64,000 bases of DNA from Candidatus Omnitrophota bacterium (GTDB taxonomy: Bacteria; CAIJMQ01). Where the stretch lies: the NCBI GenBank assembly GCA_018812925.1, contig JAHJCU010000004.1:308289-372288 (forward strand), read 5' to 3'. The notes beneath the pieces were generated by a model that was not told where the DNA came from, ran no database searches, and saw only the letters and a list, made by a program, of their open reading frames with translations. The position numbers and the translations under genes were made by a program. This document shows positions 21,282 to 61,991 of this stretch, in pieces (within the stretch, counting starts at the first letter, position 1; every line of letters starts with the position of its first letter).

Positions 21282-22151
21282 TCATACATCTACACCAAAA
21301 AAGATTCTTATAAGGAAACCTATGCCGAATGATAACACTGCTACTCCCAAACTGATAGTTGCCATTTCGGTAAACCTCGCCTTAAACGGGATATCCTGGG
21401 CAACAGATACATAAAAAGTAAACACGGCTATCACCAAAATCGCATTAAAAAGCGTAATAGCGAGAGAAAGGTAATAGTTAGAGAAAATTAAATACGGCAA
21501 TATGAGCAAAAACACGGTGCATACATAAGCTATGCCAGTATAAACTGACGCTTTAACAGGGTTTTTATTGCCCGCTTCCGTTTTGGTCGAAATATACTCC
21601 GACGCCGCCATTGAAAGCGAGGCTGCAATTCCTGTAATCAAACCTATCGCTGCAATCTGGCGCGCATTCTGAAGTGCAAGCGTAAATCCCGCCAAAGCGC
21701 CTGTAAGTTCAACAAGCGCATCGTTTAATCCCAAAACCATTGAACCAACATACTTAAGCCGTTCTTCATTTATAAGACCTATGAGTTTTTTCTCGTGCTC
21801 GTTTTCATCTTTTTCGATGTCTTTTGCATCCGGCACAAACTTAGAAAGTTCTTCATAGGATATTTGAGCTCTTTCTTCCCCTTTTTCCATCAACTTTGTC
21901 CCAAACGTTATACCGAATATCCTTGAAATTAGAGAATACTTCCATATACTTAGTTTACTCGGTTTCAATTCCTCTTTTGTATAACCTTTCCAAATATTAT
22001 AATGCTTTAACTCGTCTTCTGCGATGTGTTTTAAAATTTCTTTGTTTTGTGGTTCTTTTATTGATTCGGAAAGTTTCCGGTATATAAAATATTCCGTAAT
22101 TTCGTTACGCTGAGCGGTTAATATCTTACTTTTTATTTCTTCGGGTAGCAT
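21282..22151 (-). CDS. Ferritin-like domain fused to VIT1/CCC1 membrane transporter
   Basis: A 289-residue fusion. Residues 1-130 form a rubrerythrin-like domain with AQRNEITEYFIY, EDELKHYNIW and a later DENEHEKKLI helix. Residues 135-289 form a five-helix VIT/CCC1 iron or manganese transporter with the hallmark GLNDALVELTGALAGF. This architecture occurs in membrane ferritins such as MbfA, which export iron under iron or peroxide stress. It is upstream of the FNR-type reductase and desulforedoxin genes on the same strand. Confidence 0.9.
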   Translation of the reverse strand: MLPEEIKSKILTAQRNEITEYFIYRKLSESIKEPQNKEILKHIAEDELKHYNIWKGYTKEELKPSKLSIWKYSLISRIFGITFGTKLMEKGEERAQISYEELSKFVPDAKDIEKDENEHEKKLIGLINEERLKYVGSMVLGLNDALVELTGALAGFTLALQNARQIAAIGLITGIAASLSMAASEYISTKTEAGNKNPVKASVYTGIAYVCTVFLLILPYLIFSNYYLSLAITLFNAILVIAVFTFYVSVAQDIPFKARFTEMATISLGVAVLSFGIGFLIRIFFGVDV

Positions 22152-22371: not shown

Positions 22372-22677
22372 TTATTTCTTCATCTTTTCAATCATTTCTT
22401 CCACTTCTTTTGCGCCTTTGGTATAGAATTCTTCTTCATCTGGAGCAAGTTGTTTCAACAACCTCAAGAATTCCCCCGCATGGACGCGTTCTTCATCTGC
22501 TATATCCACCAATACATCCTTAGCCAACTCATCATCTGTCGATTCTGCAAGCTGCATATAAAGTTGGATTGCCTCATACTCCGCAGAAACCAAAAAGCGT
22601 ATTGCTCGAATTAATTCCTCTTTTGTAAGTTTCTGCTCTTTCTTTAATCCTGAAAACGGTGTCCCGAAATCCGGCAT
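22372..22677 (-). CDS. Small ferritin-like protein of the encapsulated-ferritin type
   Basis: A 101-residue protein, half the size of a ferritin. It has two helices carrying E-x-x-x-x-Y (SAEYEAIQLYMQLA) and DEERVHAGEFLRLL, so the diiron site must form between two subunits. This matches the short ferritin domains associated with encapsulin shells, including the domain fused to archaeal encapsulin. No encapsulin shell gene is in this window. The Shine-Dalgarno AAGGAGG in minus sense (about 22682-22690) is strong. The C-terminal tail is charged and lacks an obvious encapsulin-targeting peptide. Confidence 0.75.
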   Translation of the reverse strand: MPDFGTPFSGLKKEQKLTKEELIRAIRFLVSAEYEAIQLYMQLAESTDDELAKDVLVDIADEERVHAGEFLRLLKQLAPDEEEFYTKGAKEVEEMIEKMKK

Positions 22678-22766: not shown

Positions 22767-23501
22767 TTACTTAAAGACTTCTCCTGTTTCCTTGTACCAA
22801 AATACCAAATCGAGGTGATCCATAGGTATATTAGCACTTACTGAAAATTCTTTCATTTTTCCTTCAATTTCCAAATATTTCTTCTTCGATATGGAAGACA
22901 GGATTTCTTTTATAACTCCAAGCTCTTTTAGATTTCTAAGTATATGCCTGTCGAGAATAGCAATATTTTCACCTAAGCCAATGTTTCTCAAGAAATGGCT
23001 TGCCTCTTTATACCCAATGCCTTTTACCCCGTTAGAGATAAGAATTGCCTCCGACATTTCCGTACGGTCGCCAGATGGCGACCTATCTCTAACGGGGCAA
23101 GTTCCATTAACCAGCCATTCTCTTGCCTCCTGCGTACTTTCAAATTGAGATATTTGCGATTTGATATTAAGTTTTCCATTCTTTATAAACTTTCTCCTTG
23201 CCTCTACTATATACTTTGCTTTATTATTTTTGAACCGCGCTTTATTTATTTTCTTCGCTATTTCTTTGGGAGTTCCTTTAAGTAGCAACTTGTCTTTTTT
23301 AAGAATCTCCACGCATTCCCAGCAGGATTGGGCTTTGGATTGCGGAGTCAATATGCAGAACACCAGTTCAGCAAAAATATCTTCGTCGGTCCCTTCCTTA
23401 AAAAGTCGGTTAAATTCAGACAATCGGGACGTTATATCTTTAGATATATCAGAATATAACCTTTGGATAGTCTTTATTTTTTCTTTCTGAGAATGCATCA
23501 T
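22767..23501 (-). CDS. ogg: 8-oxoguanine DNA glycosylase/lyase, archaeal Ogg2 type, with repeat insertion
   Basis: A 244-residue HhH-GPD protein. The helix-hairpin-helix GIGYKEASHFLRNIG contains the catalytic Lys (K165) and LDRHILRNL the catalytic Asp (D184). It lacks the Fe-S cluster of endonuclease III. Sequence and length fit Ogg2, known mainly from archaea and some bacteria. It would excise 8-oxoguanine, in keeping with the oxidative-stress genes around it. About 24 residues (135-158) just before the HhH are foreign to the family and are encoded by a 71-nt palindromic element (23027-23097). The reading frame survives. Activity is unproven with this insertion. Confidence 0.85.
   Translation of the reverse strand: MMHSQKEKIKTIQRLYSDISKDITSRLSEFNRLFKEGTDEDIFAELVFCILTPQSKAQSCWECVEILKKDKLLLKGTPKEIAKKINKARFKNNKAKYIVEARRKFIKNGKLNIKSQISQFESTQEAREWLVNGTCPVRDRSPSGDRTEMSEAILISNGVKGIGYKEASHFLRNIGLGENIAILDRHILRNLKELGVIKEILSSISKKKYLEIEGKMKEFSVSANIPMDHLDLVFWYKETGEVFK
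23027..23097. repeat. Family A palindromic element inside ogg
   Basis: Perfect 14-nt arms, CCCCGTTAGAGATA at 23027-23040 and its complement at 23084-23097, enclose an inner CGCC/GGCG hairpin near 23069-23080. The CCCCGTTAGAGA arm also occurs in the dapF-dapL and hisH-hisF regions. Confidence 0.85.
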
Positions 23502-23571: not shown

Positions 23572-25620
23572 ATGGAAATCGCTGAAGCAAAAATAAGAAT
23601 AGAACAACTCAAAAAAAATATAGGGGAACATAACCAGTTATATTATGTAAATAATTCTCCTACTATTTCTGATGAAGGATACGATAAGCTTTTACGAGAA
23701 CTTATAGCTTTAGAGGAAAGGTTCCCACAATTTAAAACTCCTGATTCGCCGACACAAAGAGTAGGAGCACCACCTCAAGAAAAGTTTAAGACCGTCAGAC
23801 ACATTAAGCCAATGCTAAGTCTAGACGGAACAACAAAAGAAGAGGAAGTATCTAGGTTTGATAAAAGAATACGCGAAGGATTGGGAGAAAATAATGTTCA
23901 ATATGTTGCGGAGCCGAAATTCGACGGGGTTTCAATAGAACTTATATACGAAGGCGGGATACTAACCAGAGGGACAACTCGCGGTGACGGTATCAACGGC
24001 GAAGATGTAACGCCTAATGTAAAAACCATAAGAACACTACCCTTAAAACTGGACGATGTTTCTGCCACTATTGCTATCCGCGGAGAAGCAATGATGACTT
24101 TGAAAGATTTTCAGGCACTTAATAAAAGACTGACTGAAATGGATAAACAGGTGTTTGCTAATCCAAGAAATGCTGCATCCGGCGCAGTAAGACAGCTCGA
24201 TTCAACCATTACCGCTGAAAGAAAACTAACATTCTTTGCATATGAAATTACACAGACAGAAACTTTGGAAATAAACACACACCTAGAAGAAATAAAACTG
24301 CTTGAGAAATTAGGATTTAAAGTAGCGCCATATTTTAAACATTGCAAAGATATCAAGGAAGCAATTCAGTTTCATCATGAATTAGAAAAGAAAAGGGAAG
24401 AACTTCCGTTTGAAACAGACGGTGTTGTTATTAAAGTAGATAATCTCGTATCACACGAAAAACTGGGGACAAGAACACGTTCTCCCAAATGGGCTATTGC
24501 ATATAAATTTGAACCAAGAAAAGAAATTACAGATATCCAGGATATTGTTGTTCAGGTTGGAAGAACAGGAAAACTCACACCGGTAGCATTACTAAGACCT
24601 GTGGATTTAAGCGGAGTAACAGTGAGCAGGGCAACTCTGCATAATGAAGGGGAAGTAAAGAGGAAAGATATACGCGTAGGAGATACGGTTAGGATTGAAC
24701 GCGCAGGAGACGTAATCCCCGCAGTTGTGGAAAGAATACCCGCCTGCCTATCGGTTGCGGGCAGGTCGCAAAAAGATGAAAAGAGAAACCAACCGTTTAA
24801 AATGCCCGAAAATTGTCCCGTATGTAATTCTAAAGTAATCAAAGAAATAGATGAGAAAGGCAAAGAAGGCGCATACCATTTCTGTAGCGGAGGAATATCC
24901 TGCCCCACACAACTCAAAAGAGCTATTCAGCATCTTGCATCAAAAGGAGCCTTTGATATAGATGGGCTCGGCGAAAAAATAGTTGATGTTCTCGTAGAAA
25001 AAGATATTATTAAAGATATCTCAGATATATTTAAACTGACAAAAAATGATTTCCTGCCACTTGAAAGATTTGCCGAAAAATCAGCTCAAAATATGGTAAA
25101 TGCCATAGAAGAAGCAAAAAACATCAGTTTAAATCGGTTTATTTACGCGCTCGGTATATCAAATGTCGGAGAACATCTTGCGCAAGTTCTAGCAAAAGAA
25201 TTCAAAAATCTGGATAATCTTATAAATACAAACGCTGATGTGTTAAAATCCATCTTTGAAGTCGGGCCCAAAGTCACAGATAGTATAGTATTGTTTTTCG
25301 GAAATGAAAAAAACAGATATGTAATATCTAAGTTTTTTGACTTTGGGGTTAATATTCAAGAAATAGAGGAAAAGGAAGAAAAAGAACTACCTCTTAAAGG
25401 GAAAACAATAGTTTTTACCGGAGAGCTGGAAGGTTTTACGCGAGACGAAGCAAAAAAACTGGCAGAGAATTTAGGCGCCAGAGTTACATCGAGCATAAGT
25501 AGCAGCACTGATTATGTAGTAGTCGGAGCTAATCCCGGTTTGAAATTTGATGATGCTAAGAAGTTGGGAATAGAGATTTTTTATGAAGAAGAATTTAAGG
25601 AAATGATAAAAGTCCCGTAA
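23572..25620 (+). CDS. ligA: NAD-dependent DNA ligase
   Basis: A protein of about 682 residues that seals nicks in replication and repair. The adenylation domain has the lysine motif EPKFDGVSIEL. The OB fold, a four-Cys zinc finger (CPVC...CSGGISC), helix-hairpin-helix repeats and a C-terminal BRCT domain (KGKTIVFTGELEGF) follow in order. I chose ATG 23572 over the ATG at 23563 because AAAGGA (23557-23562) directly abuts the first but is 9 nt from the second. Residues near 388-396 (PACLSVAGRS) derive from a palindromic repeat (24739-24765) placed in a loop before the zinc finger. Confidence 0.95.
   Translation: MEIAEAKIRIEQLKKNIGEHNQLYYVNNSPTISDEGYDKLLRELIALEERFPQFKTPDSPTQRVGAPPQEKFKTVRHIKPMLSLDGTTKEEEVSRFDKRIREGLGENNVQYVAEPKFDGVSIELIYEGGILTRGTTRGDGINGEDVTPNVKTIRTLPLKLDDVSATIAIRGEAMMTLKDFQALNKRLTEMDKQVFANPRNAASGAVRQLDSTITAERKLTFFAYEITQTETLEINTHLEEIKLLEKLGFKVAPYFKHCKDIKEAIQFHHELEKKREELPFETDGVVIKVDNLVSHEKLGTRTRSPKWAIAYKFEPRKEITDIQDIVVQVGRTGKLTPVALLRPVDLSGVTVSRATLHNEGEVKRKDIRVGDTVRIERAGDVIPAVVERIPACLSVAGRSQKDEKRNQPFKMPENCPVCNSKVIKEIDEKGKEGAYHFCSGGISCPTQLKRAIQHLASKGAFDIDGLGEKIVDVLVEKDIIKDISDIFKLTKNDFLPLERFAEKSAQNMVNAIEEAKNISLNRFIYALGISNVGEHLAQVLAKEFKNLDNLINTNADVLKSIFEVGPKVTDSIVLFFGNEKNRYVISKFFDFGVNIQEIEEKEEKELPLKGKTIVFTGELEGFTRDEAKKLAENLGARVTSSISSSTDYVVVGANPGLKFDDAKKLGIEIFYEEEFKEMIKVP
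24739..24765. repeat. Family C palindrome inside ligA
   Basis: CCCGCCTGCC and GCGGGCAGG face each other across a short loop. The same element occurs in rseC (39845-39871) and between dapF and dapL (53879-53908). Confidence 0.75.
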
Positions 25621-25709: not shown

Positions 25710-26429
25710 ATGACGAAACATATAATTAAAGAATGGGTTCAATCCATATTAATAGCATTTATCGTTGCCATGTTCATCCGGACTTTTTTCATACAGCCAT
25801 ATAATATCCCTTCCGGCTCAATGCTGCCGACATTAAAGATAGGCGACCATCCTTTAGTCAATAAACTAATTTACAAAATCAGAGAACCCCAACGCGGAGA
25901 TGTAATAGTTTTTTTATATCCTGTCATAGAACACGGGTGCGTGCAATGTAGTTACAAACATAAATTCTTGGGATTGTTTAATAGATATGAATACTGCTCT
26001 ATTTACGAATATCGCGAAGATTACGATAAAGTTAAATATGGACTTGTCCCTTTCGCACAATTACCGGACGATTGGACCTGCCCTGCATGCGGAGCAGATA
26101 AAAGTAGCTTTAAAAAATTGCCCCGAAAGCCTTTTATAAAAAGGTTAATCGGACTGCCCGGAGAAACCATCAAAATAGCTAACGGTAAAATTTATATTAA
26201 CGGTAAAGCACTGGAAGAACCGTTGAGTATAACGCAAAGACATTATGTGTCCGCAAAAAATTTCGGGACGGAAGAAATAAAAATTCCTCTTGATAGTTAT
26301 TTCGCTCTCGGTGATAATACAAGTAATTCAAAAGACAGCCGTTATTGGGGTTTTGTTCCAAAAGAAAATTTAATAGGGAAAGCCACATATATTTATTGGC
26401 CTATTCACAGAATAAGAAAAATACATTAG
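25710..26429 (+). CDS. lepB: Signal peptidase I with inserted rubredoxin-like domain
   Basis: A 239-residue S26 signal peptidase. Features are an N-terminal membrane helix (about 11-28), catalytic S37 in PSGSMLPTL, catalytic K144 in FIKRLIGLPGE, and the GDNTSNSKDSRYWG box at 201-214. Between residues 72 and 141, where ordinary enzymes have only a short loop, lie about 70 extra residues. They include C77-V-Q-C80, C96 and a stretch LPDDWTCPACGADKSSF (118-134) that reads like the second half of rubredoxin. The second Cys of the first rubredoxin knuckle is Tyr99, so CVQC may complete the site. The insert would lie on the extracytoplasmic face. A metal-binding regulatory or structural role is possible. 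Confidence 0.85.
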   Translation: MTKHIIKEWVQSILIAFIVAMFIRTFFIQPYNIPSGSMLPTLKIGDHPLVNKLIYKIREPQRGDVIVFLYPVIEHGCVQCSYKHKFLGLFNRYEYCSIYEYREDYDKVKYGLVPFAQLPDDWTCPACGADKSSFKKLPRKPFIKRLIGLPGETIKIANGKIYINGKALEEPLSITQRHYVSAKNFGTEEIKIPLDSYFALGDNTSNSKDSRYWGFVPKENLIGKATYIYWPIHRIRKIH

Positions 26430-52951: not shown

Positions 52952-53779
52952 ATGAATAATTTTAGGTTGGAATTTTTAAAAGTATCCGGAACTGGTAACG
53001 ATTTCATTATAGTTATAAATTTACAAGATGAATATAACTATGAATGGTCCAATCTGGCGAAAAATCTATGCAGACGTCACCTGTCTATAGGAGCAGATGG
53101 GCTTGTCGTGCTGGAAAATTCCCTCAAAGCAGATGCCAAAATGAGAATATTTAATTCTGACGGGAGCGAAGCAGAGATGTGCGGTAATGCAGCGCGCTGT
53201 TCTGCGCGGGTTCTTGTGCATAAAAAACTAATTATCCCAGGTGAAGTTAGTCTGGAAACACTCTCCGGAATTATCACGGCACAGGTAAAAGAGGATACAG
53301 TGAAAATAAAAATGACACCACCGCATAGTTTCAAAGAAGAGGTGCATATAAAAATTGATGGCACGGATTATATCGGAAGTTTTATTAATACAGGCGTCCC
53401 TCATGCTGTTTTTTTAACTGACGACATAAATAAAATAGACTTACTTGAAATTGCGCCTAAAATCAGAAATAACGAACAGTTTCAGCCGGAAGGAACAAAT
53501 GTCAACTTTGTGCAAATTTTAGATAATAATTCAATATCCATCCGCACATATGAAAGAGGAGTGGAAGACGAAACCTATGCATGCGGCACAGGCGTCGTTG
53601 CTTCGAGTATCGTAAATTTTTTAAAAGGCAATTTAAAAACAAATAAAATAAAAGTACTTGCAAAAGGCGGAGAATTAACTGTTGCAATAGAAGGAACTCC
53701 TGACAAAATAGAAAATATTTACCTTGAGAGTCCCGTTGAAATAATTTATTCGGCAAAGATTTACCCCGTTAGAGATTAG
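52952..53779 (+). CDS. dapF: Diaminopimelate epimerase
   Basis: A 275-residue cofactor-independent epimerase converting LL- to meso-diaminopimelate for peptidoglycan and lysine. The two active-site cysteines lie in DGSEAEMCGNAARC and YACGTGVVAS. The C-terminal AKIYPVRD and the TAG stop are encoded by a family A repeat arm (53764-53779), so the native end has been replaced. It is paired with dapL, as expected for the LL-DAP aminotransferase route. Confidence 0.95.
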   Translation: MNNFRLEFLKVSGTGNDFIIVINLQDEYNYEWSNLAKNLCRRHLSIGADGLVVLENSLKADAKMRIFNSDGSEAEMCGNAARCSARVLVHKKLIIPGEVSLETLSGIITAQVKEDTVKIKMTPPHSFKEEVHIKIDGTDYIGSFINTGVPHAVFLTDDINKIDLLEIAPKIRNNEQFQPEGTNVNFVQILDNNSISIRTYERGVEDETYACGTGVVASSIVNFLKGNLKTNKIKVLAKGGELTVAIEGTPDKIENIYLESPVEIIYSAKIYPVRD

Positions 53780-53920
53780 TTCAACAGGAAAAGTTTAAGA
53801 TTTTATCAAAGTTTTGAAGATAAAAACAGAAAAAGAGAACCTTATGAGCGTAACAGAAATGTCAAAAGACATTTCTTACCCGCCTGCCAAAACAAAGTGG
53901 CGGGCAGGTCTCTAACGGGG
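53764..53920. repeat. Family A element spanning the dapF stop to upstream of dapL
   Basis: CCCCGTTAGAGA (53764-53775) and TCTCTAACGGGG (53909-53920) are perfect 12-nt inverted arms. A family C palindrome (53879-53908) is nested inside, next to the right arm. The arms match those in ogg (23027-23097). The dapF stop TAG (53777-53779) sits beside the left arm. Confidence 0.85.
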
Positions 53921-61923: not shown

Positions 61924-61991
61924 CCCCGTTAGAAATATTTTAACGGGGAAAAAGATAACAAATGGAAAAAGAAACTAAATTTCTAACGGGG
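61924..61991. repeat. Family A repeat overlapping the hisF start
   Basis: CCCCGTTAGAAAT (61924-61936) and ATTTCTAACGGGG (61979-61991) are perfect inverted arms. A third arm TTTTAACGGGG lies at about 61938-61948. The right arm is inside hisF and encodes residues 6-10. Confidence 0.8.

Follow-up and report, generated by a model that had tools for sequence, protein, structure and literature searches.

A signal peptidase I gene with a probable rubredoxin-fold insertion between its catalytic serine and lysine

The window analysed here, a stretch of 64,000 nucleotides from contig JAHJCU010000004.1 of a Candidatus Omnitrophota genome assembly, contains a lepB gene (Table 1) whose product matches the profiles PF10502 (residues 7-230, 178 bits, cut-off 22.9) and TIGR02227 (168 bits, cut-off 47) and which is the sole PF10502/S26 gene found in the 1.47-Mb genome (92% complete). 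Like E. coli LepB and other S26A enzymes, the product has a Ser-Lys dyad, boxes B to E and an N-terminal membrane anchor. Ser37 and Lys144 are invariant in an alignment of 21 LepB sequences and, together with Ser207, Asp209 and Arg211, are the aligned counterparts of catalytic or conserved residues of E. coli LepB. Judged from its sequence, the product is a complete signal peptidase I with all boxes intact, which is predicted to cleave signal peptides. It differs from E. coli LepB by about 66 additional residues of rubredoxin fold in the interval between boxes C and D, unlike the extra sequence of the E. coli enzyme itself, which is placed after box D.

Table 1. Features of the lepB gene and its insertion (positions within the window)
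Feature	Position	Strand	Basis or remark
lepB, signal peptidase I (S26A) with rubredoxin-fold insertion	25710..26429	+	239 aa
N-terminal membrane anchor, residues about 7-26	25728..25787	+	model helix 3-26; PF10502 match starts at residue 7
Box B IPSGSML, catalytic Ser37 (E. coli Ser90)	25806..25826	+	LepB alignment
Box C strand GDVIVFLYP, last residue Pro71 (E. coli Pro136)	25896..25922	+	E. coli LepB alignment
Inserted domain, residues 72-137, rubredoxin fold	25923..26120	+	PF00301, hhalign, fold matches, E. coli alignment
First knuckle C77-V-Q-C80, invariant in three species	25938..25949	+	alignments, hhalign
Extension of about 15 residues after the first knuckle	25956..26000	+	alignments; exact borders alignment-dependent
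Second knuckle DDW-x-C124-P-x-C127-G	26067..26093	+	PF00301, alignment, model match
Box D FIKRLIGLPGET, catalytic Lys144 (E. coli Lys145)	26133..26168	+	LepB alignment
Box E GDNTSNSKDSRYWG, Ser207, Asp209, Arg211	26310..26351	+	LepB alignment

Several other features of the window can be recorded alongside this gene. A gene at 21282-22151 (-) encodes a protein that resembles VIT1-family iron/manganese transporters and carries a rubrerythrin-like region at its N terminus; a small ferritin-like gene (22372-22677, -) lies next to it. The gene of an Ogg-type glycosylase (22767-23501, -) contains, in frame, an element of roughly 70 bp with the terminal inverted repeats CCCGTTAGAGAT (23027-23097), which adds about 25-30 residues to the glycosylase. 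The same inverted-repeat pair recurs at 53765-53919 and 61925-61990 (6 matches against 0.19 expected), and the element resembles a small palindromic mobile element. A hairpin, CCTGCC...GGCAGG, lies inside ligA (24743-24765), and the stretch surrounding it is missing from ligA of the related genome G003.

In a pairwise alignment with E. coli LepB, with the E. coli numbering counted from Ser90 and Lys145, residues 72-137 stand in for only two residues, E137-D138, and are flanked by Pro71 and Pro138, the equivalents of E. coli Pro136 and Pro139. The insert occupies the tip of the beta-hairpin that connects box C with box D and whose strands line the substrate pockets S3-S5. The initial annotation had proposed a rubredoxin-like insertion between the serine and lysine halves of a signal peptidase I, and on this point sequence, profiles, conservation and fold comparison agree. 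A scan with the rubredoxin profile PF00301, which that annotation had suggested, gave 31.5 bits (curated cut-off 23) for residues 114-134, a match to the C-terminal half of the model only, and the inserts of the two other species in which the domain occurs (G001 and G003) also score above the cut-off, making three of three. Solved rubredoxins match the insert with E-values down to 8e-9, mainly over the second knuckle, the best being 6rxn from Desulfovibrio. A profile of the three inserts aligned by hhalign to twelve free rubredoxins yields a probability of 99.1% (E 6.6e-19, 52 columns), while a match of the lepB product to PF18073 is insignificant. Since the same insert is present in two other species and its profile matches that of rubredoxins, a chance likeness can be dismissed, and the best reading of the sequence data is that of a genuine rubredoxin-fold domain. 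It is described here as a rubredoxin-fold insertion rather than as a classical rubredoxin because 43 residues separate its knuckles, compared with about 29 in a typical rubredoxin.

The five cysteines of the insert, at positions 77, 80, 96, 124 and 127, had been correctly located from the start; the interpretation given to them has changed. C77, C80, C124 and C127 are invariant in all three insert carriers, while the position of C96 is occupied by Arg in both G001 and G003. When the inserts are aligned with free rubredoxins by MAFFT, C77-V-Q-C80-S-Y falls on the C-x-x-C-G-Y of the first rubredoxin knuckle and is followed by a single gap of 15 residues, and hhalign gives the same alignment, pairing C77/C80 with the first knuckle and C124/C127 with the second. 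Without the 15-residue extension, which includes the motif KFLGLFNRY, invariant in the three species, the knuckle spacing would be about 28 residues. The cysteine pattern of the relatives and both alignments thus describe a rubredoxin in which both knuckles are complete and an extension has been added, instead of a degenerate one. The suggestion that the first knuckle had decayed around C96, with a cysteine lost at Tyr99 and CVQC as its replacement, can therefore be discarded, given that C77/C80 form the canonical knuckle and that C96 is not retained; it is accounted for by the pairwise phmmer alignment, which pairs C96 with the first cysteine of 6rxn. The insert shares with rubredoxins (PF00301, especially the short-loop 6rxn of Desulfovibrio desulfuricans) the two Cys-x2-Cys knuckles, the LPDDW-x-CPxCG core and, as modelled, a beta-sheet linking both of its ends. 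It differs from them in being embedded in an extracytoplasmic protease, in its extension after knuckle 1 and in having Ser or Met for the Gly after the second cysteine, although free rubredoxins lacking this Gly also occur (Lys in L059, Asn in L133). Several sequences from gut Bacteroidales (L062, L063, L065-L067, L069) are fusions of an iron superoxide dismutase-like protein, named from sequence, with a C-terminal rubredoxin.

Structure prediction, run on alignments that omitted the rows of G001 and G003, is consistent with this assignment. A full-length AlphaFold2 model built with 20 LepB relatives shows a confident catalytic fold, with residues 76-113 at a pLDDT of about 30, so that the orientation of the poorly predicted insert is not fixed by the model. 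Even in this model, which contained no rubredoxin rows, the region of the second knuckle fits solved rubredoxins to about 1.5 Å over 23-26 residues. The insert was also modelled alone, because rubredoxin fragments were misplaced when mixed into the full-length LepB alignment. With eleven rubredoxin rows, the mean pLDDT of the insert-only model is 67, strands at residues 73-77 and 134-137 (model residues 4-8 and 65-68) are arranged as in rubredoxin, and the extension appears as extra beta-strands. In Foldseek and VIA-align searches with this model, all of the best matches are rubredoxins or rubredoxin-containing proteins, aligned over both knuckles and the whole model (model residues 1-73), with Z up to 5.4, rubredoxins having been present in the input alignment. 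The insert-only model therefore fits the rubredoxin fold in a way that is consistent with, and not independent of, the sequence assignment, and the Z values are modest.

The insert is known from three sequences, those of this genome (G000), G001 (LepB 93% identical) and G003 (72% identical). A search for the chimeric segment in 386 genomes (of which 330 are at least 90% complete) returned only these three, and no further case was found in the phyla to which G033, G043 and G030 belong, among 385 genomes around G032 (a set that largely repeats the 386) or in viral contigs. Scanning genome contigs with short exact peptides, an approach that diverged chimeras could escape, gave 68 loci, most of them insert-free LepB and the rest rubredoxins. 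A weak match in G129 proved to be a free rubredoxin. The possibility that the insert is a common LepB variant, raised by the initial annotation together with the proposal of a lepB survey, is thus excluded within the surveyed genomes. An assembly or binning artefact can also be dismissed, since the same chimeric gene in the same gene order is found in two other genomes (ligA-lepB-bioY-cysS in G003 and lepB-bioY-DUF1284-cysS in G001, where the contig begins at lepB). The LepB tree unites the six sequences of the host phylum that it includes (100/100) and places them next to Omnitrophota. In the sister family (G004-G006) and in the outgroups the loop is of the usual short kind, and no lepB was detected in G002 (81% complete). 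Given the short loop in sister family and outgroups, the simplest account of these sequences is that the insert was gained once, in the ancestor of family f1. A search of the literature outside subscription journals found no publication joining a signal peptidase with a rubredoxin domain, and the rubredoxin-bearing signal peptidase I is a new form of a known enzyme.

Purifying selection acts on the insert: its dN/dS is about 0.20 for the two closest species, and a comparison with G003, in which synonymous sites approach saturation, yields about 0.17. For the flanking LepB parts these comparisons return values of 0.04-0.11. No part of the protein changes faster than the rubredoxin half, in which the two closest species are 68% identical, compared with 99% in the C-terminal part.

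Of the E. coli LepB residues that shape the substrate pockets, Val132 belongs to S3 and Asp142 to S3, S4 and S5 (PMC2259416). Their equivalents here, Val67 and Pro141, lie one on each side of the insert. The domain would therefore sit upstream in the substrate groove, at its membrane-facing end (P4-P7), where the signal peptide arrives from the membrane. The two ends of a rubredoxin are adjacent in one sheet, which makes the fold insertable into loops. The DsbA and VKOR families, the two disulfide families sought, have no match in the genome, which makes disulfides less likely and free thiolates for metal binding plausible. Together these observations suggest that a working extracytoplasmic signal peptidase I acquired a rubredoxin-fold domain in a single insertion in the family ancestor, that C77, C80, C124 and C127 most likely ligate one Fe or Zn ion, and that the domain, fixed rigidly through its neighbouring termini at the P4-P7 end of the groove, may help to place signal peptides, the membrane surface or a partner. 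We estimate a probability of roughly 0.6 that the Cys4 metal domain, gained once, is a metal-stabilised structural or recognition module by the site of signal-peptide entry, a reading in which metal binding, orientation and the non-redox role are all inferred.

The same location, immediately upstream of the Lys144 strand and beside S3-S5, could also serve a metal or redox switch, in which Fe or labile Zn is oxidised or lost, for example through oxygen, the hairpin carrying Lys144 and the substrate pockets shifts, and signal-peptide cleavage rises or falls. The invariance of all four putative ligands and the missing DsbA and VKOR would suit such a switch. However, mature rubredoxins bind metal tightly, which would rather fit a structural role, and no regulatory partner was identified, so that this reading appears unlikely. 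That the metal or redox state of the inserted rubredoxin controls the activity of signal peptidase I, with general export responding to outside oxygen or metal, seems improbable. Much the same can be said of the idea that the domain is a neutral passenger, inserted by accident into a loop and tolerated through its adjacent ends without a function of its own. Rubredoxins inserted by crystallographers into receptor loops, chimeras that are among the matches, leave the host protein undestroyed, and the faster evolution of the rubredoxin half would agree with a passenger; the insert is nevertheless retained in all three family members with a detected lepB, its dN/dS stays at about 0.2, and both the KFLGLFNRY extension and the four cysteines are invariant. 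Electron transfer at the external side of the membrane, with the peptidase only as an anchor, is very improbable. In its favour, profile searches found no other PF00301 match in this genome or G001, while G003, G004 and G005 have a free rubredoxin. Yet G003 combines a free rubredoxin with the LepB insert, which rules out a simple substitution, the usual rubredoxin partners are cytoplasmic, and the extension alters the surface near the putative metal site.

LapB (YciM) of E. coli, a membrane-anchored regulator of proteolysis, offers the closest functional parallel: its function depends on a rubredoxin-type domain that docks against the TPR repeats, and the shared traits are a docking role at the membrane and a tie to proteolysis (PMC8745692). 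The LapB domain differs in being cytoplasmic, C-terminal and fused to TPR repeats, not placed within a protease. Signal peptidase I is an essential enzyme with a very widely conserved core, and the conserved insertion of a whole redox-type, putatively metal-binding domain beside its substrate groove amounts to a natural domain-insertion experiment. It shows that the hairpin between boxes C and D is able to accommodate a folded domain, and it allows the question whether metal or redox state can tune a general export protease to be tested directly.
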